IMG/VR virus record: IMGVR_UViG_3300013103_000052
Span: 1 to 26,938 of that record
Reading direction: 5' to 3' (one strand)
Length of the DNA: 26,938 bases
From: a virus
This document shows, one piece after another, positions 1,370 through 26,938 of this stretch. Position 1 is the first letter of the stretch. Each line of letters starts with the position of its first letter. Under the pieces are notes generated by a model. It ran no database searches, was not told the origin of the DNA, and saw only the letters and a list, made by a program, of their open reading frames with translations. The position numbers and the translations under genes are program-made.

Positions 1370-4300
1370 ACAGCCGTAGCTCTTGCCTTAAACTTCAATT
1401 CATTGAGAAATTCATCGATATTCGTAACGCCTTGGATAATTATGGGACCGTGAATAACATACTCTTCTCTGTTCTCTTCTATTGGTGTTGGTAGTCTTCC
1501 ACCTACATAAGCACCATATTGGAGTTTTAAATCAGGGAAATAACGAGGAATAATTGATTTAAGTAAGCGTTCACCATATCTCCTATACCGACCACCAAGT
1601 GGTATAACAGCCTCCGGTCCAGCCTCACCAAGAAGTGCATTTACAGGTCCCTTAACTATCGCTTTACCTAGCGTTCTCGGATTAAGTGGCTTTGGAATAC
1701 TTCTTGCAGCATTCATAATAGAGGTAGCCACACCAGCTAATCCGCCAAATGCATAAGGCCAAGGTATCTGTCCAGCTTCCATAAGTTCAGCAAGTTTTTT
1801 CCTCATTAGGTCGACAGCAGCTTGTAAACTCTTCGTCGTTGCAATCACCTGCTCTTTCCCTTGTTGAGAAATAGCAACAACTCCCCAATGTCCTAGCGGA
1901 ATTCCACTCCTACCACCTGGACGCACAACATAGGTCTTGATATAATCGACGGGTGTGGCTGCACCACCGCCACCTGCACCTCCGCCTGCACCACCTCCAG
2001 CTCCTCCGCCTGCACCGCCGCCTGCACCACCAGTCATACCTTCTGTAATGGTTCTAATTATCAGCTCAAGAATCCACTTGCCCATCGGTGATTTTGTGAA
2101 ACCTGCTCTTTCAAGCATTTCTGTAACTCTATTGATGAAATTCTGTGTATCCAAGACTGTATCAATAGTGAGCTCAGGATTGTTTGTGTCGAGAATAATC
2201 TGAAGAGCGCGTAATCTTTCTGGAGTGAGATGATTAAGAAATGTATTCCAATCTTCAGAATCCCATTTTGTAATCACATCAACAGATTGGCCTGATAAAC
2301 TCGAAACAGCTTCTAAGAATTGCCTGCGTTTTTCAACTGTCATAGAATTGATGAATGCGTCCCAGTCTTGGTCATCCCAGGAAGTAGTAATACTGAGTGT
2401 AAAGTCCATATCTTGCGAACGCATATATTTCATTAATTCTTGAAAATCACCATGGAAGCCCTTGAGGAGCATATCTGCAAAGTCATATCGGAGAGCGTAT
2501 TGGAATAAAGCTTCACTGCTTTTGTAATAAAGTGATATCATCTCTTTTAGAGTATCATTCATTGTATTGAGGACATTGGTTAAAGATTCTTTCAAGTCTG
2601 CTAATTCAGTAGTGATATCATACATTGCTTCTTCTTGAGAGTATGCATCTTCGACTGCATCAACAAACGCATCAAGAGATTCGACTTGCAATGCTGTTGC
2701 TATTTGAGCAAGAGTCATGCCATCTGCATACTCTCCAGTGATTTCTGCTATCTTCACTAACGCTGCAGCCGCTATCAATTGAGCATCTGTGAATTCGCTG
2801 AGAGAGTCGTAATTCGTCTGATACAGAGTATTCAATGTCTGGAGTATTTCTTCTGCAGTGCTTCCAAAAACATTCGTAAGATTTAAGCGTGATATCAACT
2901 CATCATATATTGATGCAACATTATCAACTTCTCCTGCTTCGTCCTGAAGAGCTCTTGCCAATCTCGCTATTATACCAGCAACACCATCTATTGACTCAGC
3001 TAAATCTTCACTCACTCCGTACATTTCAAGTTCGTAAGAGATGGCTTCTCCAGTGTTATCAATTAAATCTAAGAATTCTTTAATCACTTCAGCCGAAGCA
3101 GCGCCTATTTCTTCTAGGCTTGATACTAGTGGTGTAAGAACATCTTTGAATGCACCTATAGCATCATTCAATTCCTGCTGCGCTTCTCTGTAAGCAATAA
3201 CTATAGAAAGCTCCTCATCAGTAAGGAAGGTAAGTTCATCCAAACCTTCTCCGGTGTTTATATAGTTGTCAACCAGCTGACGCTGTTCTTCATTTAGACG
3301 TTCATAAACTGCAGCCAACTTCGGATTTAATGCAAGTAATTTACCTTTTGCTCTCATCATCTGTGCATATCCGTCTATAAGGTCCTGATTTATCAAACCT
3401 TCTTCTGCAAGTTGTTTGAACAATTCATCAAGTTGCTCATCTTCTCCAGTTCTCAGTTTATAGAGCTTGTATTCAATTTCATAAAGTTTCTTCCTAGCTT
3501 CATATAGTAATTTAGCTTTTTCTGCTAGAGCTCGTTCACCCTTCTCCAATAAGAACTGATATGCCTGCTCTTTAGCTTCAAGCGATGTTATTTCAGCCTC
3601 AATCTGAATATAACGTTCACGAAGGTCTATTAAATCTTCTGCAGTCCTCAGCAAATCCTTCTGCACATCTGTCAGCATCATAATCGTCTTACCTTCCGCA
3701 GTTTCAACTTCTACGCCATGTTCCATTATATATTGCAATTGTCTACGCAATGTTGCCAATTGTTTTGTAGTTTGTGCATTTTGCTCCTCCAATTGCATAC
3801 GCTCTCGCATTGCAGCAAATAATTTATATTCAGCATTTCTAACCTCATTTGATTGAGCACCATAAATTGCAATAGCATTTGCTAAATCCTTAATTGCTTG
3901 CTCTTCTTCTCTCAATGCAGCATTTAATTCATTTTGAGCAACGAATAATTCATAAGACTGCTGAGCCATATCTTCGAGTAGTCCAACAATCTTATCGAAA
4001 GGACCTGGCAAAGCTCTCATAGCCTGTAGGAAGTTCTTAAGAGAAGTTAAGAAGTCTTTCCGTGCATCCTCAGCTTCACGCTCTGCTTGGACATATGTCT
4101 CTACAGCTTCTCTCACTCGTCTATAATCATCAGCGGCGGTACGAAGAACATCATTTAATGCACTTTGAGTATGCGCTAGCCTGTCATTAGCTTCTCTTAA
4201 TCTAGATACAGAATAACTGAGTCCAACTAACTCTCCGGCAAGCGGACCAAGAATTTTAGCAGCTTCAAAATATGTGGTCTTGAATATCTCTATGAAGGCA

Positions 4301-6381
4301 TCTTTGATTTCCTGATACATCCTCATATCAACTGGATAATATCCACCGGTATATATCACGTTCCATGCAAGTGTAACAACTCCTTCGACTGATACTTCTT
4401 TACCGAGTCTCTTCTCTAATTCGCTAGCAACTTCTTGCCAGACATCCATGTAATCTCTTGCATTCTCAACCATATGTCTAAATGCATGCTTTGCAGCTTC
4501 GTCCATATTTTTCGTCTCTCTCAGATATCTATTGCCAACTTGAATTATTGAATTCCTCCATTCCTCAGAGAAATGAATACTTTCGAGTAGAGTGAGATTC
4601 AGACTCCTAAGTTCATCTTTTGCTTTTCTTGCCGAGCTGCCGAAGAGAATAAAGTAGCTAACTGCGGTGCCTAATGCAATGAGAAGTAGTGTGATAGGAT
4701 TCTTGAGCATTGCCGCATTAAGTGCTCTTTGTGAAAGTGCGGCAGCACCTGTCGCAGCAGCAAGCGTCTGTTGAGCTTTAGCATATAATTCGGCTGCTAT
4801 AGCTGCTTGGAATGTAATTTTCGCATTTCTACTCAATGCAGCAGCTTGAAGGAGCTGGAGACCTATGACGTATTTAGTCATGAAGGAGACGACAGCCATT
4901 GCAGCCTTGTAACCAATCAAAAGCGAAATAAGAATCTTGAGTGGAGGAAGAACTACAGTCTTCCATTTTCTGAAGCCTGCTGATATAGCTTCTATCATTG
5001 GAACAACCTTTGCTCTTATTATACTAGCACCCCACTCGAACATTGGAATGAGTGATTGTCCTAGAGTGATAGAAGCAGCTTGAAGAGCATTAGAAAGCTT
5101 AACTAATGCACCCCAAAGAGTCCTCTCCTGATATTTTGCAACCGATTCTGTGATTCCCTGAGACATTTCGAGCATCGCTGCAAACCGTGCAACATCATCA
5201 GCTGCATCGACGAGAACCATTGCAGATGCAGCCGTCCTAGCCCTGAACATTGCAGCAGCTTCTGTTGCACCAAAACCAGCAGCCTTAAGCTTATAAAGTA
5301 TCTCAACTAAATTATAGTATTTTGGATTTACATCATCTGCAGTAAGTCCTAATTGCTCAAGAGCTTCAGCCGCTTGGTCTGTCGGCTTTAGCAATCTGGT
5401 GAGTATCATATTGAGCCTCTGTCCTGCTTGTGAACCCTCTAAACCTCTATCAACCAATGCCGATACTGCAGCTACGGTTTCTTCGAGAGATAGACCTAAA
5501 GAGCCTGCAGTTGCACCAACATATTTCATAGCTTCTCGTAATCTTTGGAAGTTCATGAAAGACTTTGTTATAGCTGCGGTGAATACATCGACTACTCTTG
5601 CAGTTTCTGACATATCAAGATTGAATGATTTCAATACGGTGAGAACTGCATATGTGGCATCTTCTAATGAAGTTTGGGTTGCAGCAGCATAGTTAAGAAT
5701 TGGGATGAGTTCCTTCTTTGTAAGCTTGGAAACATCATAACCAGCTGATGCAATCTGATAGAAAGCCTTAGCAACATCAGTAGCTGAGAAAACTGTTTCC
5801 TTAGAGAGAGTCAGTGCAAGCTTTGAAAGGTGGTCAACAACTTCATCGAATGCATCGCCAAGATAACCAGAGATTGTCGCAGCATTAACTATTGCTCTCT
5901 GGAATTCTTTAGTGCTTTCAGCCATCTCTCTGAATCCTCGAACAATTGACATTACTAGTTGTACACCAATTGTGAATGTGATATAGTGAGCAATCTTTGC
6001 AATCAAATTCCTAAAGGAGAAGATGATTCTGAGTGTTCCCAATATGGATTCTCGAGACCTGCGATACATCATAGAAAATGCTGCTGGCAGCTCTTTGCTG
6101 ATATCCGTTTTCATCTTTTGTGTTGCCTCTCTGGTCTTTTCTGCGGCTTTATCAATTGCGATTTGAGCTTTAGCAGTAGACTGCGCAGCAGCTTTAGTTA
6201 TATTCTTTACAGCCTTCTCAAATTGCTGTGCAGTGACTCCGAATGGTTTAAAACCTGCTGCGATTTCTTTAGAGATGGCATTAAGTCCAGCTTGGAGTAC
6301 TTTTCTAAATTGCTTTAGCTGTCCTGCAATTCCTCGGAAATCGAGGACTAATCTAACCGATAATTCACCAAGGGAAGGCAT
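1366..6381 (-). CDS. Phage tail tape measure protein (TP901-type core)
   Basis: This 1671-residue protein would set tail length and be packed inside the tail tube before ejection. Residues about 150-450 match the TP901/PhageMin_Tail core: a series of Ala-rich helices with TVFSATDVAKAFYQIASAGY (196-215), then LGLSLEETVAAVSALVDRGL and SQAGQRLNMILTRL. Two hydrophobic stretches follow at about 481-510 and 562-581. Residues 600-1320 are long charged coiled-coil-like helices. Two WDxxDW-type helical repeats lie near 1332-1385, then a Gly-Ala linker (about 1451-1475) and a C-terminal domain with GEAGPEAVIPLGG near 1590, a motif typical of tape measure C-termini. ATG at 6381 follows a 161-base gap, one of the larger gaps here. 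Function is secure by family; the exact tail type is not shown. Confidence 0.93.
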   Translation of the reverse strand: MPSLGELSVRLVLDFRGIAGQLKQFRKVLQAGLNAISKEIAAGFKPFGVTAQQFEKAVKNITKAAAQSTAKAQIAIDKAAEKTREATQKMKTDISKELPAAFSMMYRRSRESILGTLRIIFSFRNLIAKIAHYITFTIGVQLVMSIVRGFREMAESTKEFQRAIVNAATISGYLGDAFDEVVDHLSKLALTLSKETVFSATDVAKAFYQIASAGYDVSKLTKKELIPILNYAAATQTSLEDATYAVLTVLKSFNLDMSETARVVDVFTAAITKSFMNFQRLREAMKYVGATAGSLGLSLEETVAAVSALVDRGLEGSQAGQRLNMILTRLLKPTDQAAEALEQLGLTADDVNPKYYNLVEILYKLKAAGFGATEAAAMFRARTAASAMVLVDAADDVARFAAMLEMSQGITESVAKYQERTLWGALVKLSNALQAASITLGQSLIPMFEWGASIIRAKVVPMIEAISAGFRKWKTVVLPPLKILISLLIGYKAAMAVVSFMTKYVIGLQLLQAAALSRNAKITFQAAIAAELYAKAQQTLAAATGAAALSQRALNAAMLKNPITLLLIALGTAVSYFILFGSSARKAKDELRSLNLTLLESIHFSEEWRNSIIQVGNRYLRETKNMDEAAKHAFRHMVENARDYMDVWQEVASELEKRLGKEVSVEGVVTLAWNVIYTGGYYPVDMRMYQEIKDAFIEIFKTTYFEAAKILGPLAGELVGLSYSVSRLREANDRLAHTQSALNDVLRTAADDYRRVREAVETYVQAEREAEDARKDFLTSLKNFLQAMRALPGPFDKIVGLLEDMAQQSYELFVAQNELNAALREEEQAIKDLANAIAIYGAQSNEVRNAEYKLFAAMRERMQLEEQNAQTTKQLATLRRQLQYIMEHGVEVETAEGKTIMMLTDVQKDLLRTAEDLIDLRERYIQIEAEITSLEAKEQAYQFLLEKGERALAEKAKLLYEARKKLYEIEYKLYKLRTGEDEQLDELFKQLAEEGLINQDLIDGYAQMMRAKGKLLALNPKLAAVYERLNEEQRQLVDNYINTGEGLDELTFLTDEELSIVIAYREAQQELNDAIGAFKDVLTPLVSSLEEIGAASAEVIKEFLDLIDNTGEAISYELEMYGVSEDLAESIDGVAGIIARLARALQDEAGEVDNVASIYDELISRLNLTNVFGSTAEEILQTLNTLYQTNYDSLSEFTDAQLIAAAALVKIAEITGEYADGMTLAQIATALQVESLDAFVDAVEDAYSQEEAMYDITTELADLKESLTNVLNTMNDTLKEMISLYYKSSEALFQYALRYDFADMLLKGFHGDFQELMKYMRSQDMDFTLSITTSWDDQDWDAFINSMTVEKRRQFLEAVSSLSGQSVDVITKWDSEDWNTFLNHLTPERLRALQIILDTNNPELTIDTVLDTQNFINRVTEMLERAGFTKSPMGKWILELIIRTITEGMTGGAGGGAGGGAGGGAGGGAGGGGAATPVDYIKTYVVRPGGRSGIPLGHWGVVAISQQGKEQVIATTKSLQAAVDLMRKKLAELMEAGQIPWPYAFGGLAGVATSIMNAARSIPKPLNPRTLGKAIVKGPVNALLGEAGPEAVIPLGGRYRRYGERLLKSIIPRYFPDLKLQYGAYVGGRLPTPIEENREEYVIHGPIIIQGVTNIDEFLNELKFKARATAV
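1957..2033 (-). repeat. Gly-Gly-Ala-Gly repeat linker in the tape measure gene
   Basis: A run of near-identical 12-base units (variants of GGTGCAGGCGGC) encodes alternating GGAG/GGGAG repeats between the helical body and the C-terminal domain of the tape measure. On the opposite strand the same bases read as a polyproline frame, which is an artefact. It is probably a flexible hinge. Short in-frame units make copy-number change by slippage likely. Confidence 0.8.
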
Positions 6382-6429
6382 AATCCATCACAATATTCAG
6401 GAAATTGTCGTAGAAGGCACAGAAATGGC

Positions 6430-6454
6430 CGTAGGGACGTTTTTCGTCTTTACG
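6430..6454. other. Hairpin-forming inverted repeat upstream of the tape measure gene
   Basis: In the 161-base gap between the tape measure start (6381) and the preceding stop (6543), the transcribed strand reads CGTA-aa-GACG, a five-A loop, then CGTC-cc-TACG: a 9-base arm with a 2x2 internal mismatch. It is short and has no T-run after it, so it is not a clear intrinsic terminator. It could be an mRNA processing or stability element, or chance. The rest of the gap holds a 54-codon open frame (ATG 6532 to stop 6365) with no ribosome-binding site or recognisable product. Confidence 0.3.
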
Positions 6455-6542
6455 AATATAATATGTCTCGGAGGTGCTCGAACTCGTCCCAGAACGCAAA
6501 TATGACGCTTTTAAAGGCATTTCTGGAGACATTTTGAGCCTA

Positions 6543-6851
6543 TTATTCAATTTCGACAAGCTGAAAGACTTCACGCTGAATTATTTGTCCAGAACCAAGT
6601 GCACCACCAAGGAGAGACCATCCAGACCACTCTACTGTGTATAGACCGAGCATCGCATTAGAAGATGTTTCGATGAAATAGTAGTATTTACCAACATCAG
6701 ATTTGAATGGTACGGCATTATCCACTAGTTTGGTTCCATCTGGTTTATAAACGTTAAGTCTTGGATAGAGAGGGTCAACTAACTGACCAGATGATTTAAA
6801 CTCTGCAGTTACTTTGATGGTTGTTCCGCGTTCGTAACAGTTATAAACCAT
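6543..6851 (-). CDS. Small Ig-like virion protein
   Basis: A 102-residue protein made almost entirely of predicted beta strands. It opens with a YERGTTIKVTAEFKSSGQLV segment, contains an LNVYKPDGTKL strand pair and ends with GLYTVEWSGWSLLGG and EVFQLVEIE. This 'rG-t..v.a.f...G.lvdP....vy.PdGt' pattern is that of a single immunoglobulin/macroglobulin-like beta-sandwich, seen in small accessory proteins near phage tail genes. It has no signal peptide or membrane segment. It lies between the 14-residue-repeat protein (22-base gap) and the tape measure, with ATG at 6851 preceded by AAGAAGAT. A virion surface or tail-fibre accessory role is inferred from fold style and neighbours; no enzymatic motif is visible. 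Confidence 0.6.
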   Translation of the reverse strand: MVYNCYERGTTIKVTAEFKSSGQLVDPLYPRLNVYKPDGTKLVDNAVPFKSDVGKYYYFIETSSNAMLGLYTVEWSGWSLLGGALGSGQIIQREVFQLVEIE

Positions 6852-9440: not shown

Positions 9441-12400
9441 GCTTCAGGTCCAGGTATATTCCACGTTCTGGTGTCACCAACTTTGGTATACACTACAGTG
9501 AACTTATCAATCTCTACATTTAAATTAGAGAAGCCAACAACATATATCTCCCATTCGTAAGTGCTGTTATCCCAATAGCCTATAACTTCGCCGTCTTCTA
9601 AGCCTGCGTCATCAACGATGTCTGATAGCGTTGTAGTTGAGCCAGTATAACCAGTATAGTTAGCTCCTTTATTTGTTGAATTGATTAGAAGGACTGTTCT
9701 TGTAGCGCTGTAATTGATGTAGTTATTGGGAGTTGCATATATCTCAACGGTTCCGGTATCAGTGAGATAAATTCTAATGACATCGTAGGTGTGGATATAG
9801 AAGTCTTCGCCGGTGCCATCACCATAATAGAATATCCAAAGACCATTCTCAGAATCCCAAGTTGTGCCATTCCAGATTGCAATATATTCGGATGCCTCAT
9901 CGAATCCCGGAATGTCTTCAACAGCTTCAGACGCTGTGCAATTCTTTCCAACCCATATGAAATAGTCTTCTCCATCTGCACGAACTACCATGCGGAATGT
10001 GGACTTGACTTGAATATCAGGGTCATTTACTGTTCCATCTTCTCCATCGAAAGCGTAGAACAATATGTCATAGACGCCGGCCTTTAGTGTAGTGGAATAA
10101 GAATATAAGGCTCCGGTTAAATTATCACCAGAAACATATGTCATACTTGCATTTAAATACCATCCAGGTTTAGTGATATTAACTTTTATCTCACTTGGAG
10201 AATCATTATCTGGGTCAGAATATGTGATATTAAAATAGAAAACCGTGCTGCTTGCCTCTCCGACCGATGGTGTCGCTGACGGATTAGATAGTGTTGGCGG
10301 TGTGTTTTCAATAGTTCCTTCAATGTAAAGAGATGTACATCTGATTTTCGGTGATGGTATCGCCATAGCCGGGTCAAAGTAGAAACCAACCTCTAAGTTT
10401 GTCAAATCATTAGCTGTCCAGTTTTCATTTGTGAAGGGGTTCTTTGAAATATAGACGATAAATGTTTGGTAGTTTGTGTTGTCAACCCTTATCTTCGCAA
10501 TTCTTGTTAGTTGAAAGCCGGATTTCAATGTGACATATAGGTGATTATATGTACCACCGGTTGCTCTCGACACTATAACTATCTTCAAATATTTAAGCTT
10601 CGATGTCGTATCTTCAAAATTAAATGTCTCTTCGCCGATACCACCCTCGATGTATGTTGTGTCGCTATCGTGAGAAGAGCCATCATCGATACACTGCCAT
10701 TTGTAAGTTGCACCGTGTGCGGTAATATCATCATCATTGACTGTACCGTTGTCATTTGGAAGGAGAGTAAGGTCTGGTGTTGGATAATTTGTTCTGATAG
10801 TCTTAACAAAAGTCTTAGTTCTTGTCACGCCAGTCGATGAAATAGTATAGCGTAGAGTGTAGTTGCCATAGTCACTCATAAATGTTGTATTACTTATAGT
10901 TATCTGATTCTGCTCAGTGGAACCTACTCCTTCTTCCAGTGTTTGATACTCGCCATCAATTAGGCCTTCATATTTGTAGTAGTATGCATAACTTAATCCA
11001 TCAAGTCGACCATGAATTTGCGGCTGAAGTTGGTCGGTATCATTCTTTTCTATATAGAAGACTGACCAGCTGTTATCATAAGGATGTGTTTTGAACTTCA
11101 TGACTGCTTTGGAAGTGACAGAATCCGCTGTGCAAGTAACATTGATAAGATATGTTGTATCGGTGCTGGAGCATCCTGAGTACAGAGTTGAATAGATTCC
11201 GTAATTTTCCACATCACCATCAGAGAAAGATTTAGCGAGCTGCCAGTTTCCGTCTTTGAAATAAACATCTGCACTATCAATGTCCTTATTGTTGAAATTG
11301 ATAAATTTGAATTTAGCATAGGGATGACCTGGAATGCTGAATGTATTGTTCTTCATCGTGGGGCCGTAAACCTCAATGTTTGTGTATTCTGGATACTTTG
11401 GACGAAGAGTGGGGTCACCAAGTACTGATAATCCAGAAAAGGATGTTGTAAAGCCCTTTTCGTTCAATAAATTCATTATCGCATCACCGAATGTATAATT
11501 ATCTGCGTAGATGTATTGGATACACTGATACACAACAGGACCGCTGATAGTTTTTGTACTTCCAATAGTCATCACAGCCCCACCTACCTGCCAGAGAAGA
11601 ACTGGAAGAGTATCTTGGTTTGGAACATCATCCAGCCAAGCATTATCGCCACAACCGCAGGAAATCACGATAAAGGCTTTTTCTTCTGCACCAGTGTAGT
11701 TAAAACACCCATCATCTGGCGAATGGTCTGGGTCTTCCCACCAGTAACCTCCATGAGCCCTGACGAGATACATATAGAAGCCCTCTGTATAGCCTTCATG
11801 AGTTCCATTAAGATATTCCGTCATTTCGGATGAATTATGCACACTCTCATTAACACAGTGGTCAAAGCCCGGCGATTCCGGTGAGTCTAAGTAACCAACA
11901 TTGTCGAGGATGTTGAGATAGGTGTAATTCAGATAATCAGTCCATATTTCGTCATTCACTTCATATGTGCTTATGTTCATTGAGTACATAATGACGTTTT
12001 TATTAATCTCGGCATCATATGCCCGTGCTTCGTAAGCCTTTGTTTTATTGAACCAAGCATAGAATTGTGAATCTGTCTCGAAAGGAACTCTACCAACTGG
12101 AATATCTATCTTACCATCACTTAAATCGCTTCCGCCTTCACAGAAATAATCATCGTCGTCTTTGTTCTGTGTGCCGTTAAGTGCACCAAAGTACCACATG
12201 TCGACTGTTGCTACATCGTCCCACATTGGCTCTGATTCATAAGTCAACCTGTATGCTGTCTTACCAAATATCAATACAGCTTTGATAGCATTATCATTGT
12301 AAACTTTATCACGAATGAAATTTCTTACTTTACAAGCGGTATCATTGTAACCAGAAGCTGCATTCCAAGAAGACTGAGAAACATACCATGGATTTGAAGG

Positions 12401-21262: not shown

Positions 21263-22240
21263 CTACTTCGCGAGTATTCTTACTCCAGCCTTGTCGTCCA
21301 CTACTGCAACTCCATATCTCATGGTACACGATATACCGAGCAGGTCGTGTATTGGGTCATCATATTGTTCTATTGTTATATCTCTCCTCATTGCTATGAA
21401 GGCAGCATTCTTGGAATCGAGAACCAATGCATAGTAGTGGTTGTCCGCATCTGTACCATCCCAAGAGTATGTGAATCCGCTTTCAGTTGTAACCGACAGA
21501 GTGTATGGTCTCAGGCCAAGAATTCTCGGCAGTTCTCCAGTCTCGAGGGTTCTGCCCTGACCAGCATATGCAACGTAAACCAAGTTGCTGTCTTTAAGTA
21601 GCTGACCCTCTGCAATTGGATGGGTTATCAGTGTGTCAGGCAGTCTGCCCTCAGACTCAACAAGAGCTCTTGCAGTTGCTAAATCTGTGACTGACAAAGC
21701 AGTACCAGCTGGGTCGACATCCGTGATGCCATCAAGGTCCTTGAGTATTGCCTGGAGACAATCTCTGTTCAGTTTGTTCTCTAATCTGGCACCAGCCTTC
21801 TTCAGCTCGAGCTCAACGACGTCGAAGAGGGCATCCTCAATCAGTTCGTTTGTGATGAGTGGTCTTGTACCTATCTTCTTGATTGTAATGTCAGTCTTCG
21901 CATAAGAAGTTGTATCAATCGGTATCTCAGCTCCCTCAGCTATATCTTCTGCGTATGCATTACCCTGAGATGTGACGACTCTGACGGAGTAGGAATCCGT
22001 CTTTATAACTGGAAGAACATCTCTGAAGCATTTGTATGGCTCAGCGCCTTCGACTACCGTCTTATGAACCTCTTCCTGCAGAAGAGTCGTCTCGGAGATT
22101 GAATCAGACTGCAAAAGTGTCTTATATGTCTTGGAGTCTTTACCGCCAAGGTCGTGAATCACATGCGGGTTATTCAGGAGTCTCTTCCTCTCTGAGTTGC
22201 CAGCGTATGCAAGCTGGAGCAATCTTGTCAGCTTACTCAT
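21263..22240 (-). CDS. Major capsid protein (HK97 fold)
   Basis: A 325-residue protein that builds the icosahedral head. It has the HK97-type order: an N-terminal arm (1-70), a KTDSYSVRVVTSQGNAYAED strand pair and AEGAEIPIDTTSYAKTDITI, the P-domain/E-loop-like segment typical of this fold. Helices follow with ITNELIEDALFDVVELELKK, then TLITHPIAEGQLLKDSNLVY and an A-domain end containing YYALVLDSKNAAFIAMRRDI and MRYGVAVVDDKAGV. ATG 22240 is preferred to a TTG three codons earlier. No separate scaffold gene is visible; the acidic tail of the protease gene upstream probably fills that role. The neighbours (decoration protein before, neck genes after) are as expected. Confidence 0.9.
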   Translation of the reverse strand: MSKLTRLLQLAYAGNSERKRLLNNPHVIHDLGGKDSKTYKTLLQSDSISETTLLQEEVHKTVVEGAEPYKCFRDVLPVIKTDSYSVRVVTSQGNAYAEDIAEGAEIPIDTTSYAKTDITIKKIGTRPLITNELIEDALFDVVELELKKAGARLENKLNRDCLQAILKDLDGITDVDPAGTALSVTDLATARALVESEGRLPDTLITHPIAEGQLLKDSNLVYVAYAGQGRTLETGELPRILGLRPYTLSVTTESGFTYSWDGTDADNHYYALVLDSKNAAFIAMRRDITIEQYDDPIHDLLGISCTMRYGVAVVDDKAGVRILAK

Positions 22241-22295
22241 ATATATCAAACGTCTTTCAAAACATCTTTACATACATACATTAGATGAGAGGAAC

Positions 22296-22676
22296 TTAAA
22301 TGAGAAGCACCTTACCCACGCCAGGGTTGCTAGATGGTGCCTCCACAACGATTCCACAGTTTCTTCCGGTACTATCTCCGGAAAGATAACCTTCCTTGTA
22401 GGCACCGACTGTTGCTCCTACGGATGGTATGCTCGAACCTGATATACCGCATCTAACTATGTTCCCTGCACAGTAAATAGCAACCATCTCGCCATCAGAT
22501 GCATCGTAGTCCGCAATGCCAATTGCATCCTGATTTCCGGCAGACGTAGCTGCTACTGTATTATCGTCTACAAGCCTTACAGCCTGTCCCTTCTCAATAG
22601 AGCCGGATGCCTTGAAGGAAAATGCAAATGTTCCGAGCTGTATACCTATGTCATCATCTATTGTTATAAACGCCAT
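22296..22676 (-). CDS. Capsid decoration protein (DUF2190-like)
   Basis: A 126-residue beta-rich protein: MAFITIDDDIGIQLGTFAFS, a SIEKGQAVRLVDDNTVAATS segment, QDAIGIADYDASDGEMVAIY and a C-terminal EAPSSNPGVGKVLLI. The 'kGqaV.l......v..as.g...aiGia...a..Ge.v.v...G.v' arrangement is that of the DUF2190 / capsid-cement family, small proteins that sit on or stabilise HK97-fold heads. It lies directly before the major capsid gene. AAGGAGG lies ten bases before ATG 22676, a strong ribosome-binding site that fits a high-copy virion protein. There are no membrane or catalytic features. Confidence 0.75.
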   Translation of the reverse strand: MAFITIDDDIGIQLGTFAFSFKASGSIEKGQAVRLVDDNTVAATSAGNQDAIGIADYDASDGEMVAIYCAGNIVRCGISGSSIPSVGATVGAYKEGYLSGDSTGRNCGIVVEAPSSNPGVGKVLLI

Positions 22677-22730: not shown

Positions 22731-24449
22731 TTAACATCTATATATCGTGCCGTGCTTTATAACAATATCTGAGTACTCTTCTTCCTCTTCTTCATCCTCT
22801 GACTTATTGATTGTCTCCGGTGGTTTCTCTGCTTTTTCGAGAGCCTCCAATCTCTTCTGCAGTGCATTTATCTGGTCATCCTTTGCTTTAATCTCAAGTT
22901 TTAATTGCTCAATCTCCTTTGCCTTCTCGCTATCGCTTTTAAATGCTTCGTATTTCTCCCAAAGGTCATCAATAGCCTTGACAACAACTTCATGCCACTC
23001 TGCCTTGGTTGGATATGGGTACTTCGATGGGTAAGGATAGCTTGTCGGATATGGGTAAGGATACGGATAATTGCTCCTGCGAAGGTTTGCAACCATATCA
23101 AGAATAGTCTGCAGCTTTGCCTTCGTACTGTCACTCTTTACTTCATCAATTAATTTTGTAAGCGCATCAACAATAGCCCCGACTAATCCACCCTGCTTTT
23201 CGGTTGTCTCTTCACCTTCCTTATCCTCGTCTTCCTGCTTCTCTTCAACAGTCTCTTCTTCCTTTACTTCCTCTTTCGTTTCTTCTTCCTCTTCTTTGGT
23301 TTTACTGTTGACAAGCTCAGATACAATCTTTGTGAGGCTCTCCAACTTTCTCTCTATTTCTTCTTTCCAAGTCTCAATGTCCTCTGTTTCCGTTTTCTCT
23401 TCGCTGACTGTCTCTGTCTGCTCTTCGGTGTTGCACTCTTCATCTTTTACGACACCAGTCTCCAATATGTCTTCAGTCATATTCTCATTTGTCTTCTCAC
23501 ATCCACATACATCTTCTGATTTAGATATCACTATAAAGCCTGAAAGAGGATTAGCTGGAGATTCGCAAACTGAAACCTCATAGATGTTAATCTTATCAAT
23601 TACTGTATAACATTGGTTCTCGTCACACTCTCTATGCGAAAGCAATGCTTCTCCAGCTATAGAAAATGAATTCAATTTACCTTTCAGAATATCTTCCCAA
23701 ACCCTATTTGCTATCTCTAAATCGTCTCTTATTTCTGCAACTATGAAAAGACCCTTATCATCTACATGAGTCTTTAAATTGCCGTATTCTCTAAGGATTC
23801 GGCCAATTTGTATATTCTGATGCTTGACCATAACGTTGGCATAGAACTCATCATTTAAGAGGGTTTTAATTGCATCCTTAAGAACTTCAACTGGAATAAT
23901 TTCATTATCCTTATCAACTATAGCTACGGATGCATAACCTGCAATAATTCTTCGTGACTTCTTTGCTTTGCCATTCGACATGACTCTAAAGTTTCCTTGC
24001 AAATCAAAATGAATGCCATTAGACTTTGACATATGAACAATCTGTGGATTCTTGATTGGAATGAATGTTTCTTCGTATATGGGGACATAAGAAGTAAAGG
24101 GGCCTGCTGATGTATAATGAATGGAAACGTATTTAGGTACCTCATCATATGGAACTCCAAGAATGTCTGCAAACATTCTGTATATTCTGAAGTCAAAAGC
24201 CATCCTCTGCTCTGGAGACCAATCTTCTCCGCGAACAACAATGTCTATATCGTTATTGCTCTCACCATGAACTGCGAGAGAGCCAACAATATATGCAACT
24301 GGCTTTCTAACTGAGAATGGCTTCAACTTATTAAGTATATCTTTAAGCTTTATCTTTTTTCCTTTGTCGCCACGTCCTGAGGGAGGAACTGGAGCGTATT
24401 CTAACTCACCGAGTTGAGATAGCGTTTTCAACTCCTTAGTTTCAATCAT
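22731..24449 (-). CDS. Nucleotidyltransferase - XkdF-like prohead protease - scaffold fusion
   Basis: ATG 24449 overlaps the preceding stop as ATGA and is preferred to a TTG at 24512, giving 572 residues. Residues about 50-130 hold a minimal nucleotidyltransferase signature, VGSLAVHGESNNDIDIVV (GS 56-57, D67, D69). Residues about 165-310 match the XkdF-like prohead protease: RIIAGYASVAIVDKDNE, NVMVKHQNIQIGRI (candidate catalytic His210), LNSFSIAGEAL (candidate Ser263) and a closing YEVSVCESPANPLSGF. From about 311 the chain is very acidic and helical, then has a Tyr-Pro repeat (about 461-479) and a final coiled coil, as expected of a built-in scaffold removed on maturation. The protease would process the procapsid. 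The role of the nucleotidyltransferase is unknown; a third acidic metal ligand is not obvious. Confidence 0.78.
   Translation of the reverse strand: MIETKELKTLSQLGELEYAPVPPSGRGDKGKKIKLKDILNKLKPFSVRKPVAYIVGSLAVHGESNNDIDIVVRGEDWSPEQRMAFDFRIYRMFADILGVPYDEVPKYVSIHYTSAGPFTSYVPIYEETFIPIKNPQIVHMSKSNGIHFDLQGNFRVMSNGKAKKSRRIIAGYASVAIVDKDNEIIPVEVLKDAIKTLLNDEFYANVMVKHQNIQIGRILREYGNLKTHVDDKGLFIVAEIRDDLEIANRVWEDILKGKLNSFSIAGEALLSHRECDENQCYTVIDKINIYEVSVCESPANPLSGFIVISKSEDVCGCEKTNENMTEDILETGVVKDEECNTEEQTETVSEEKTETEDIETWKEEIERKLESLTKIVSELVNSKTKEEEEETKEEVKEEETVEEKQEDEDKEGEETTEKQGGLVGAIVDALTKLIDEVKSDSTKAKLQTILDMVANLRRSNYPYPYPYPTSYPYPSKYPYPTKAEWHEVVVKAIDDLWEKYEAFKSDSEKAKEIEQLKLEIKAKDDQINALQKRLEALEKAEKPPETINKSEDEEEEEEYSDIVIKHGTIYRC
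23015..23071 (-). repeat. Tyr-Pro repeat in the scaffold part of the protease gene
   Basis: Short units of TATCC(G/T/A)TACCC type encode an alternating Tyr-Pro tract with Thr/Ser/Lys spacers. It separates two helical parts of the acidic C-terminal region and probably forms an extended linker. Confidence 0.75.
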
Positions 24450-24739
24450 GCTCCTAAGATTATTTTCCCGACTAGTCCTAGAAGGAAGACGAACATTACT
24501 CCAAGTAGCCAATAGAGAATTGAAACCTTCATTTTAACGGCGGATATGTCGGATATAAGGTCTTTTATAACACCACTTCGCATCGAATTTACCGCAGCCC
24601 ATATCTCATCAGTCTTGCTGTCGATTTTATCCTCTAGACTTCTTATTCTTACTGATAGTTCATCTTCATTCTTATTTATCGATTCTAAGGTAGCAAGCAC
24701 TCTACCATAGAATTCACGAAAGTTTTCTTCCAGCGTCAT
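24446..24739 (-). CDS. Small coiled-coil protein with a C-terminal membrane helix
   Basis: A 97-residue protein. Residues about 10-65 are charged and helical with coiled-coil spacing (VRIRSLEDKIDSKTDEIW). Residues about 73-95 form one clear membrane helix (YWLLGVMFVFLLGLVGKII). The topology resembles XhlA-type holin partners and other small phage membrane proteins, but sequence similarity to a named family is not evident to me. It is unusual to find it between DNA-end enzymes and the prohead protease, not in a lysis cassette. Its stop overlaps the protease start as ATGA, so both are probably translated together. It could anchor procapsid assembly to the membrane or act in lysis. Confidence 0.6.
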   Translation of the reverse strand: MTLEENFREFYGRVLATLESINKNEDELSVRIRSLEDKIDSKTDEIWAAVNSMRSGVIKDLISDISAVKMKVSILYWLLGVMFVFLLGLVGKIILGA

Positions 24740-24815
24740 AATCCTTATTTCGTAAGCTCTTTAAGAATTTTAAAATACAGAATTTTAAGTTCTTCTATTG
24801 CTTTCCCGACTCCAT

Positions 24816-25820
24816 TCATGGTTTACATGACAGCTTTTCAGAAAACTTCTCTACAGACATTTCTCTATATGCTTCTCTTCCGAATTTATCGAGCTCTTCA
24901 GCTTTTATTGGATAGTAATGGCCACAATCGGCATGGAGTATTGAATCCATTGGATAAGGGTCATCGTATGCCTTCCAAACCCACCAGCGTTTATCTTTCC
25001 CAGCTCTAAAGCATCTAATTATGAAACGGCCATTAAAGAGTTCTTGATTACGCTTAGGCATGTCCGTGCTTGGATAGAGGAAATATTCATGCAAATCAGG
25101 TCTCTGAACTCCTGCTTTCACCTTACCAAGCCAAATCGCACACATATATGCATTTTTGTATGCGGTGGCACCTACGTCTCCAGCTTCAATGATATACGAT
25201 TTATCAAAGAGGACATATTTCTCTATTAGTTTTGCATCCTCGGGACCAATAATCAAGTCTTCCTTTGCTTTAACCGCCTGAGTAGGTTCCAACGCCGATG
25301 GCTTGACAATTGCAAGTCCTTTTGATGCATTACCTGTCTTTGGGTCCCTCCGACCTATAATTGTATCGAAGTAATCCGGAATATGGTCTTGAGTGATTAC
25401 CCATTGAACGAAGGAATTCTTGAACTTCATTCTCAAATCCACATGAATCGAGTGACCTTGAATTAATTTTGCAAAGGACAACTTACCCTCAAGATATTTC
25501 TTAGTATCGTCTAAATTAAGTCCGCGAATATGCATCTGTGCCCAAGCAATGCCTTCGTCGTAGTCAACATAGCATATCTTTGGAAGCGGCTCCAATTCCT
25601 TCTTCAATTTTTCATAGATATCTTCTGGAATATGCTTGAGAGATAGCCATTCGCAAACATCTTCTTTTGTAATAGCTTTATCCTTGAGTATTTTACGCCA
25701 AGTGTCTGGCACCGCATCTGAATAATAGAGTTTGGTGTACTCGGCCAATGAGAGATTCTCAAGTGAAGATGAGTCTACAAATTGAAGAGAGCCATCTGGA
25801 TATTCAACTAAGACGCGCAT
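24816..25820 (-). CDS. LigD-type 3'-phosphoesterase-like protein
   Basis: A 334-residue protein; ATG 25820 lies inside the ligase gene (17-base overlap). The key segment is GHSIHVDLRMKFKNSFVQWV (about 142-161), which resembles the LigD phosphoesterase hallmark 'HDAr.lHyDfRle.dg.lksW', with conserved His and Asp of the metal site. The later GRFIIRCFRAGKDKRWWVWK segment (about 271-290) resembles the family's closing 'L.G.w.LvR....WlLiK'. Residues 1-110 and an inserted YIIEAGDVGATAYKNAYMCA region are not recognised. The LigD phosphoesterase trims 3'-phosphate or ribonucleotide ends before ligation. The ligase directly upstream makes an end-healing pair plausible. The similarity is distant, so activity is inferred. 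Confidence 0.55.
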   Translation of the reverse strand: MRVLVEYPDGSLQFVDSSSLENLSLAEYTKLYYSDAVPDTWRKILKDKAITKEDVCEWLSLKHIPEDIYEKLKKELEPLPKICYVDYDEGIAWAQMHIRGLNLDDTKKYLEGKLSFAKLIQGHSIHVDLRMKFKNSFVQWVITQDHIPDYFDTIIGRRDPKTGNASKGLAIVKPSALEPTQAVKAKEDLIIGPEDAKLIEKYVLFDKSYIIEAGDVGATAYKNAYMCAIWLGKVKAGVQRPDLHEYFLYPSTDMPKRNQELFNGRFIIRCFRAGKDKRWWVWKAYDDPYPMDSILHADCGHYYPIKAEELDKFGREAYREMSVEKFSEKLSCKP

Positions 25821-26938
25821 CGCCAATCTTAATTATTCTAACATAGGTGTCACCAATTTTGGCAATGTCTTGTTGAATATGTTGCAGCTCTTCAATTGGT
25901 ATTCGTTGCGGCTCAAATGATGATAATTTATCAATAGTTTCCAATGAATCCGTAACATCTTTCTCAGGGATTGGTTCCAACACTCTTCCTATGTAAAAGG
26001 AATACCGTGGATATTCTGGAAATTTCTCGTTATCAAACTTCAGCACTTCTTCGGCCGCTATCCTTATAATATCGCCGATTTTGATTTGTGTTCTCTCTTT
26101 ATGATTATCTGATTTGCCCATCAATGTTACAAATATCACTGAATTATCATTCAGATACTTCTTGCAGTCTTTGCCAACAGCTACAATTTTACCATTCTTG
26201 TAGCAATGAACTTTACCATACCAATCTTTTGTTGTCATATTTAGATACGCTTCAGCATAATCGCGCGGTGTATCATATCCAAGGTAGTAGTTATAAACGT
26301 CCTTAGTGCCTTTCACTAGCTTCTTATCGAGGACTCGCAAGTCAAGCTCATGATAGAACTTCACCTTCATCCAATAATGATTCTGAGGAGACTCGTATGG
26401 ACCATCCAGACGTTTCAGCATTACACCCTCTGCACAGAACTTTGGTCTACCATTCTTAGCATCACGAATAATCTCTGCAGCCTTTAGGATGCAATCGATA
26501 TTAGAACCATCACAAATATATCCATCAGCTTTCTTTTCGAAGGTAGTAGCAATTCTTTCTATCCAAATGTGCTCTGTTGGTTTCAATCGAGAGAGATATT
26601 CTAGACGTTCATGAAGAGGAAGATTGCGTAAATCTTCTCCTTCAAAGTAAATTATATCGAATACGACAATTATTGCATAACGTTCCAGCTCTTCTCCAGA
26701 TGCTTTTGAGTTTAAGAGTGAATTCGCCACCGTCCTATGAAGCATTTCTTTACCATTAGGATGAATAGCTAGAAATTCTCCATCAAGAATGGTATTGTCG
26801 GGAAAGTTGTCTTCGATTTCCTTTATTATAGCCGGTATTCTTTTCGACACATTCGGGTCCTTCTCTTTCACGTCTTCTGGGTCAACAAATGCAAATCCCT
26901 TTCCGTTGACTTTACCAATCGTCATTCTGAGTCCGTCC
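25804..26938 (-). CDS. ATP-dependent DNA ligase (5' end cut by window edge)
   Basis: The frame is open to the right edge. Just before the first in-window ATG (26925) it reads DGLR, the end of ligase motif I (KxDGxR), so the catalytic lysine lies just outside and that ATG is not the start. Further motifs are in order: ILDGEFLAIHP (motif III), VVFDIIYFEGEDL (IIIa), AEGVMLKRLDGPY (IV) and YWMKVK (V). An OB-fold region with QIKIGDIIRIAAEEV follows. The enzyme seals nicks using ATP. Length after motif I (about 377 residues) is somewhat more than in minimal viral ligases. It overlaps the phosphoesterase-like gene by 17 bases, suggesting joint expression. The gene may extend into another domain beyond the edge. 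Confidence 0.88.
   Translation of the reverse strand, partial: DGLRMTIGKVNGKGFAFVDPEDVKEKDPNVSKRIPAIIKEIEDNFPDNTILDGEFLAIHPNGKEMLHRTVANSLLNSKASGEELERYAIIVVFDIIYFEGEDLRNLPLHERLEYLSRLKPTEHIWIERIATTFEKKADGYICDGSNIDCILKAAEIIRDAKNGRPKFCAEGVMLKRLDGPYESPQNHYWMKVKFYHELDLRVLDKKLVKGTKDVYNYYLGYDTPRDYAEAYLNMTTKDWYGKVHCYKNGKIVAVGKDCKKYLNDNSVIFVTLMGKSDNHKERTQIKIGDIIRIAAEEVLKFDNEKFPEYPRYSFYIGRVLEPIPEKDVTDSLETIDKLSSFEPQRIPIEELQHIQQDIAKIGDTYVRIIKIGDARLS

Follow-up and report, generated by a model that had tools for sequence, protein, structure and literature searches.

A DNA ligase, a LigD-type phosphoesterase and a nucleotidyltransferase-protease fusion in the head module of uncultivated tailed viruses suggest DNA break repair in or at the viral head

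Gene content and organization of the locus

The window analyzed here, the whole stretch of 26,938 nucleotides (IMG/VR record IMGVR_UViG_3300013103_000052), is one entire contig of a metagenome-assembled genome (MAG) of 1.82 Mb, and the part examined is viral. The late genes occupy the minus strand and, read from the right end, encode an ATP-dependent ligase, a protein resembling the 3'-phosphoesterase (PE) of LigD, a 97-aa coiled-coil protein, a prohead protease that carries a nucleotidyltransferase (NT) domain, a decoration protein and the major capsid protein (MCP) (Table 1). The analysis of these genes and their relatives suggests that a family of uncultivated tailed viruses repairs DNA breaks in or at the viral head.

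Table 1. Late genes and domains in the right-hand part of the window
Feature	Position	Strand	Evidence
ATP-dependent polynucleotide ligase, 3' part only: catalytic domain from within motif I, OB-fold region	25804-26937	-	Pfam DNA_ligase_A_M 3.5e-17; PDB profile matches; motifs
LigD 3'-phosphoesterase-like protein, 334 aa from ATG 25820, stop 24816	24816-25820	-	AlphaFold2 and Foldseek; conserved residues
97-aa coiled-coil protein with C-terminal membrane helix	24446-24739	-	hydropathy; homologs in relatives
Minimal nucleotidyltransferase (Pol-beta/MNT-type) domain, N-terminal part of protease reading frame	24030-24449	-	hhalign; alignments
S78 prohead (head maturation) protease domain	23532-23981	-	Pfam Peptidase_S78 1.9e-12; PHROG head maturation protease 8e-14
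C-terminal tail of protease reading frame: acidic, YPYP-repeat, coiled-coil, scaffold-like	22731-23531	-	sequence; role inferred
Head decoration/cement protein	22296-22676	-	Pfam Phage_cement_2 2.6e-5
HK97-fold MCP	21263-22249	-	Pfam Phage_capsid 1.6e-16; PHROG major head protein

Phage ligases are usually encoded in replication regions. The initial annotation placed this one in a late morphogenesis operon, with decoration and major capsid genes following, and both points hold: the two head genes are recognized by their domain profiles, and across relatives the cassette lies within the head module. The two overlaps that it reported are also exact, namely 17 nt between the ligase stop and the start of the PE-like open reading frame (ORF), and an ATGA at which the start of the protease ORF (ATG 24449, stop 22731) overlaps the preceding stop. 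The back-to-back order of the three enzymes stands for the adjoining ligase and PE genes only: the PE stop is separated by 76 nt from the gene of the coiled-coil protein (19-residue hydropathy maximum of 2.5 at residue 72), which lies between PE and the NT-protease ORF. In nearly all relatives a gene of this type immediately precedes that of the protease, whether or not the enzymes are present. The reading frames of the cassette are not due to chance because many contigs show open frames of the same length. In a comparison of the window with one of the relatives, L003, synonymous sites approach or have reached saturation (pS of 0.68-0.88), and dN is 0.09 for the ligase, 0.14 for PE and 0.17 for NT, compared with 0.085 for MCP; the cassette genes evolve under purifying selection.

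The ligase

In agreement with the initial annotation, motifs III, IIIa, IV and V are present in the window ligase. The gene is truncated by the contig end inside motif I, so that only the DG of KxDG remains and the motif I lysine is missing. The best PDB profile matches are archaeal and human DNA ligases, and the nearest annotated phage homologs are LigD/NHEJ-type ligases of SPbeta-group and Rhizobium phages (NHEJ, non-homologous end joining). Full-length copies in relatives, among them those of L003 (7299-10007) and of L002, a virus near-identical to that of the window, are 900-1,300 aa long and contain all ligase motifs; in most of them motifs I (KxDG), III, IIIa, IV and V occur in this order. 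Judged from these motifs, nick sealing is the putative activity.

The N-terminal part of the ligase is exchangeable among relatives and missing in L021 and L022. In L002 and L003, an MBL-like domain (Lactamase_B_2, E=1e-4), in which most of the canonical zinc ligands are altered, is followed by a domain that we read as ASCH-like, a helical part and then the ligase. The L134 ligase (4992-6776) has a D12 DNA adenine methyltransferase as its fusion partner (E=2.4e-17), and in the virus of L044 the ligase N-terminus is, in our reading, PAPS-reductase-like. A small Cys-rich module forms the start of the ligases of L149, L150 and L044; it is also encoded on its own, in the head slot, by relatives that lack the ligase. 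In L008 an ATP-grasp protein is joined to the C-terminus of the ligase, whereas L015 and L017 encode it separately (GARS_A, E=4e-6 in relatives).

Several side observations concern these proteins. A ligase ORF of 718 aa on the reverse strand of L053 also appears, by eye, to contain a fused PAPS-reductase-like domain. Inteins prefer conserved active-site stretches, and a LAGLIDADG-type intein interrupts the ligase between motifs III and IIIa in L002 (5576-9361) and L026 (3175-5160), with the junction ...EMLHRT/C...HN/CANSLL; none is present in the 99%-similar virus of the window. Large insertions are also found in TerL, PE and the NT domain of L018 (3862-6294, 8565-12455 and 12860-15676), in the L159 ligase (9677-12310) and in the L024 portal protein (4179-6518), and at least two of these show intein or LAGLIDADG matches.

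The LigD-like phosphoesterase

The window PE protein gave no Pfam match and no PDB profile match, and its hhalign comparison with LigD_N did not rise above shuffled controls. The attempt to establish homology to LigD from sequence alone thus failed, and the matter was resolved by structure prediction and by compact relatives. The AlphaFold2 model, built from 12 viral sequences (pLDDT 80.9), has a sole significant Foldseek match in the PDB, the archaeal LigD 3'-phosphoesterase 3p43 (probability 1.00, E of 8e-4, target-normalized TM-score 0.73); the next-best match has a probability of 0.07. Two compact relatives without inserts, PE1 and PE2, match cellular LigD_N (31.8 and 36.6, against about 20 in column-shuffled controls), and PE1 matches the window PE family at 99.9%. 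The protein is thus predicted to adopt the LigD-PE beta-barrel fold, as the motif-based call of the initial annotation had implied, with large inserts relative to LigD PE.

Catalytic residues are retained in part. In the LigD PE of Pseudomonas aeruginosa, Mn is bound by His42, His48 and Asp50, alongside Gln40 and Arg52, and His84 and Tyr88 are required for catalysis (PMC8656161). The equivalents of the Mn ligands (H99, H128 and D130, counted from TTG 25826) and of Gln40 and Arg52 (Q97 and R132) are at least 90% conserved (alignment A8), whereas the stretch aligned to His84/Tyr88 is LAIVKPS in members of the window clade and AKEPLPW in those of the L134 group. With the Mn ligands and the arginine kept and the phosphate-binding pair lost across homologs, PE activity is plausible yet unproven.

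The nucleotidyltransferase domain

The nucleotidyltransferase, initially annotated as a gene of its own, turned out to be the N-terminal domain (residues ~36-161) of the ORF that also encodes the S78 protease (residues 178-327). It contains the motif GSxAxHGxSxxDID, a GS motif with DxD (GSLAVHGESNNDID). No match was obtained in a PDB profile search; in hhalign, the domain scores 28.5 against cellular minimal nucleotidyltransferases of the Polbeta family, versus at most 16.6 in 60 column-shuffled controls. The usual position of the third carboxylate is Pro in the window clade and Asp in the virus ANMV-1, and an acidic residue (E/D; E147 in the window, counted from TTG 24512) is found a few positions later, on a later strand, in the NT members whose alignment covers that strand, so that NT activity is possible.

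Recurrence of the cassette in related viruses

Relatives were gathered by IMG/VR scans, a GTDB contig scan and record searches. The cassette recurs across divergent IMG/VR viruses, within the gene order terS-terL-portal-small S78-like-HIT-like-slot-coiled-coil gene-(NT)protease-decoration-MCP, in which the slot between the HIT-like and coiled-coil genes is the place of the ligase and PE. Among the 40 of 54 protease lineages for which at least 7 kb of upstream sequence was available, ligase and PE are both present in 16 (counting L044, whose ligase lies at the opposite contig end) and both missing in 24. The corresponding Fisher test, which ignores relatedness, gives p=1.6e-11 and overstates the evidence because the lineages are related; the protease tree nevertheless requires several gains or losses. 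Thus, in the head modules of many divergent viruses either both genes are retained or neither is, and the linkage proposed in the initial annotation extends beyond this locus. In L149, no PE gene is found within 5 kb after the ligase and the contig ends before the protease, so that it neither supports nor refutes the linkage; its layout is like that of L044, whose PE gene lies further on. The NT domain was detected by profile in 14 of the 40 lineages, two of them without a ligase; in the L134/L139 group the profile missed it, yet it is plain between ligase and PE (AGSLIYHAEG...NDIDII).

Pairwise identities correlate with one another for the ligase, NT, protease and MCP (Spearman coefficient ~0.8). 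For PE the coefficients are only 0.4-0.5, partly due to split, intein-containing or cut copies, and strict vertical co-inheritance is therefore not claimed.

The partners of the NT domain vary: the order is NT-protease in the window and most relatives, protease-NT in L140, ligase-NT-PE in the L134 group and NT-ligase-PE in ANMV-1. Ligase and PE are likewise fused in L004, L007, L018, L021, L022 and L043; in the window and L003 they are encoded by two genes. The ANMV-1 protein AJP62006, recorded as 'ATP-dependent DNA ligase', combines NT, ligase and PE domains in a single chain of 866 aa, with a second PE-like domain at the C-terminus; neither the NT nor the LigD-PE domain is annotated in the record. 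As in the window, NT, ligase and PE of the same families are encoded near head genes; unlike in the window, NT is not fused to the protease, and the overall gene order differs. The AJP62006 gene starts 6 bp after that of AJP62005 (L011, KP703175.1, 1913-3193), which is labeled 'MutT-like phage hydrolase' and is in fact the portal protein (Phage_portal_3, E=3e-22), so that the record can be corrected on both counts. The C-terminus of the protein encoded after AJP62006 resembles, in our reading, an SPP1 gp7-type minor head protein. As a single query against IMG/VR, the ANMV-1 protein gave no matches. Repeated refusion among a few domains, always next to either the portal or the protease, is the strongest sign that these domains act jointly at the head.

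Comparison with known systems

The initial annotation likened the enzymes to an NHEJ/LigD-like set. The resemblance stands for the DNA-end-processing activities and the LigD-PE fold: bacterial LigD and the split archaeal NHEJ systems (PE, ligase, polymerase and Ku) share the ATP-dependent ligase and the LigD-fold PE with the viral cassette. The remainder of the likeness is not supported. Ku was found in none of 12 relative contigs (up to 138 kb, all possibly fragments), and no LigD primase-polymerase was found in the cassette, the only matches, below the cut-off, being to a primase-like gene outside it in two contigs; the set is therefore not a canonical LigD-NHEJ system. It further differs in the minimal NT, in the location within the head operon and in the PE, which carries the inserts and lacks the two phosphate-site residues.

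The mycobacteriophages Omega and Corndog encode a Ku that exploits host LigD for genome circularization (Pitcher et al. 2006, as cited in PMC7719229). The likeness is NHEJ chemistry on the virus's own genome ends; these phages bring Ku and borrow LigD, whereas viruses of the window family encode the ligase and PE themselves, and no Ku was found. The particle of African swine fever virus (ASFV) carries a base-excision-repair set of Pol X, ligase and AP endonuclease, the packaging of which was shown by proteomics (PMC12172490). It offers a functional parallel, with a nucleotidyltransferase-fold polymerase and a ligase in the particle; however, ASFV is unrelated, its Pol X is templated, unlike a minimal NT, and in the window family packaging in the head is inferred. 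In phage T4, the ligase (gp30) is required for encapsidation, Endo VII (gp49) acts at the portal, and gaps and nicks impair the packaging of short DNA (PMC10893049, PMC3012670). DNA repair and processing enzymes are thus needed for encapsidation, or act at the portal during it; unlike in the window family, the T4 genes are neither in a head cassette nor fused to the protease. The parts of the viral cassette thus belong, or nearly belong, to known families. For their arrangement, in which a set of LigD type occupies a head operon and NT is fused to the protease, we found no description in the searched literature, the coverage of which was incomplete.

Possible functions

The reading that we favor, with about even confidence and on genomic and structural grounds, is that of a head-associated module for healing and sealing strand breaks in HK97-type tailed viruses, probably of archaea. 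The PE would clean 3' ends, removing a 3'-phosphate or a ribonucleotide, the NT domain would add or handle a nucleotide at the end or else serve as a docking domain, and the ligase would then seal. The module would work on the viral genome at the portal while it is being packaged, within the head, or as it is ejected, such that the packaged duplex stays unbroken. A head location is proposed because of the NT-protease fusion with its scaffold-like acidic tail, the fusion of the ligase to a head-slot module and the gene neighborhood. The NT-protease fusion makes a location in the head interior more likely: being joined to a prohead protease/scaffold protein, at least the NT domain should enter the procapsid. 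We tentatively entertain, with more doubt than confidence, a narrower version in which PE, ligase and NT form a virion-borne kit, with the prohead protease/scaffold as the vehicle, that mends the packaged or incoming genome of viruses that are probably archaeal. If true, tailed viruses of prokaryotes would possess an end-repair system carried in the virion; a kit acting in the head would reveal how packaged DNA is kept intact by some viruses and provide new end-repair enzymes for study.

Several points weigh against the healing-and-sealing module. Its presence is patchy, with 22 of the 40 lineages devoid of all three enzymes, so that it is not essential for head assembly, and unrelated genes occupy the same slot in relatives. 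The PE alignments contain no equivalents of the phosphate-site His84 and Tyr88, and the NT domain is too small for a templated polymerase. The patchiness, together with the slot contents (PAS-like proteins, a second MCP-like gene and fibre-like genes) between the portal or HIT-like gene and the protease, fits a different explanation, namely that accidental gene traffic brought general replication, repair or DNA-modification enzymes into a variable 'cargo slot' among the late genes, in which case their position would be uninformative on action at the head. The swapping of the ligase N-terminus between MBL-ASCH, D12 methyltransferase and, by eye, PAPS-reductase-like domains, and the addition of ATP-grasp in some relatives, also fit. 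We nevertheless consider such traffic rather unlikely, given that most members have NT covalently linked to the capsid protease, that ANMV-1 encodes the same set after its portal despite the different gene order and that ligase and PE are always kept together.

The lost phosphate-binding residues and, in the window clade, the proline at the usual third-carboxylate position of NT would also be compatible with PE-like and NT domains that are catalytically dead and exapted as structural or DNA-binding parts of the head, leaving the ligase as the sole enzyme. This is improbable in view of the at least 90% conservation of the Mn triad and the Gln40 and Arg52 equivalents, the acidic residue kept shortly after the proline in the NT members whose alignment covers that strand, and the retention of all ligase motifs in most copies. 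To a similarly small degree we credit NHEJ-like joining of the genome ends after injection by enzymes delivered with the genome: the LigD-type ligase and PE and the precedent of Omega and Corndog speak for it, but neither Ku (in the 12 contigs) nor a LigD polymerase (in the cassette) was found. RNA repair or another polynucleotide chemistry, such as DNA-base hypermodification with ATP-grasp, methyltransferase and ASCH partners, seems very improbable, since the ATP-grasp and D12 methyltransferase partners seen in some relatives are sporadic and the ligase profile best matches DNA ligases.

Host

The host of the virus group is probably archaeal. ANMV-1, the host of which is given as an uncultured archaeon, is the only PE relative among 50,697 phage records, and the best phage matches of the protease include haloarchaeal tailed viruses. 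A primase-like gene is present in two relative contigs. Neither the bacterial beta clamp nor archaeal PCNA was found in the window's MAG, and TBP was not found in 8 records. One relative among the GTDB contigs belongs to a MAG labeled Thermoplasmata; the binning of a virus contig is weak evidence and does not settle the host.

Neighboring genes of the head module

A small HIT-like protein (CPxC...EH...DHxHxH/Y) is encoded between the portal and the protease in most relatives (L003:6982-7299), directly before the ligase gene where that is present, and outside the window. The His triad is complete (DHxHxH) in L018, L021, L022, L024 and L043, with HxHxY in its place in the window clade. No Foldseek match was significant (aprataxin at a probability of ~0.8), and the protein is possibly aprataxin-like or a structural zinc protein. 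A role as an aprataxin-type deadenylase partner of the ligase was considered and rejected; the gene is kept in nearly all relatives that lack ligase, PE and NT and is therefore a core gene of the head module.

Other recurrent proteins of this region include PAS-like proteins of 125-158 aa (...ICIPLxYNGVSGVxxI...), whose genes in many relatives immediately precede the coiled-coil gene (for example, L105:8506-8982, L117:8630-9055 and L043:10935-11312), and, in several relatives without the ligase set, a second MCP-like protein of 308-322 aa encoded in the slot upstream of the protease (L098:8269-9204, L106:5773-6699, L108:8316-9284 and L112:7805-8758). A second S78-like protein (L003:6480-7010, 176 aa, Pfam E=0.0025) is encoded after the portal in nearly all members; the group therefore seems to possess two head proteins with the protease fold.

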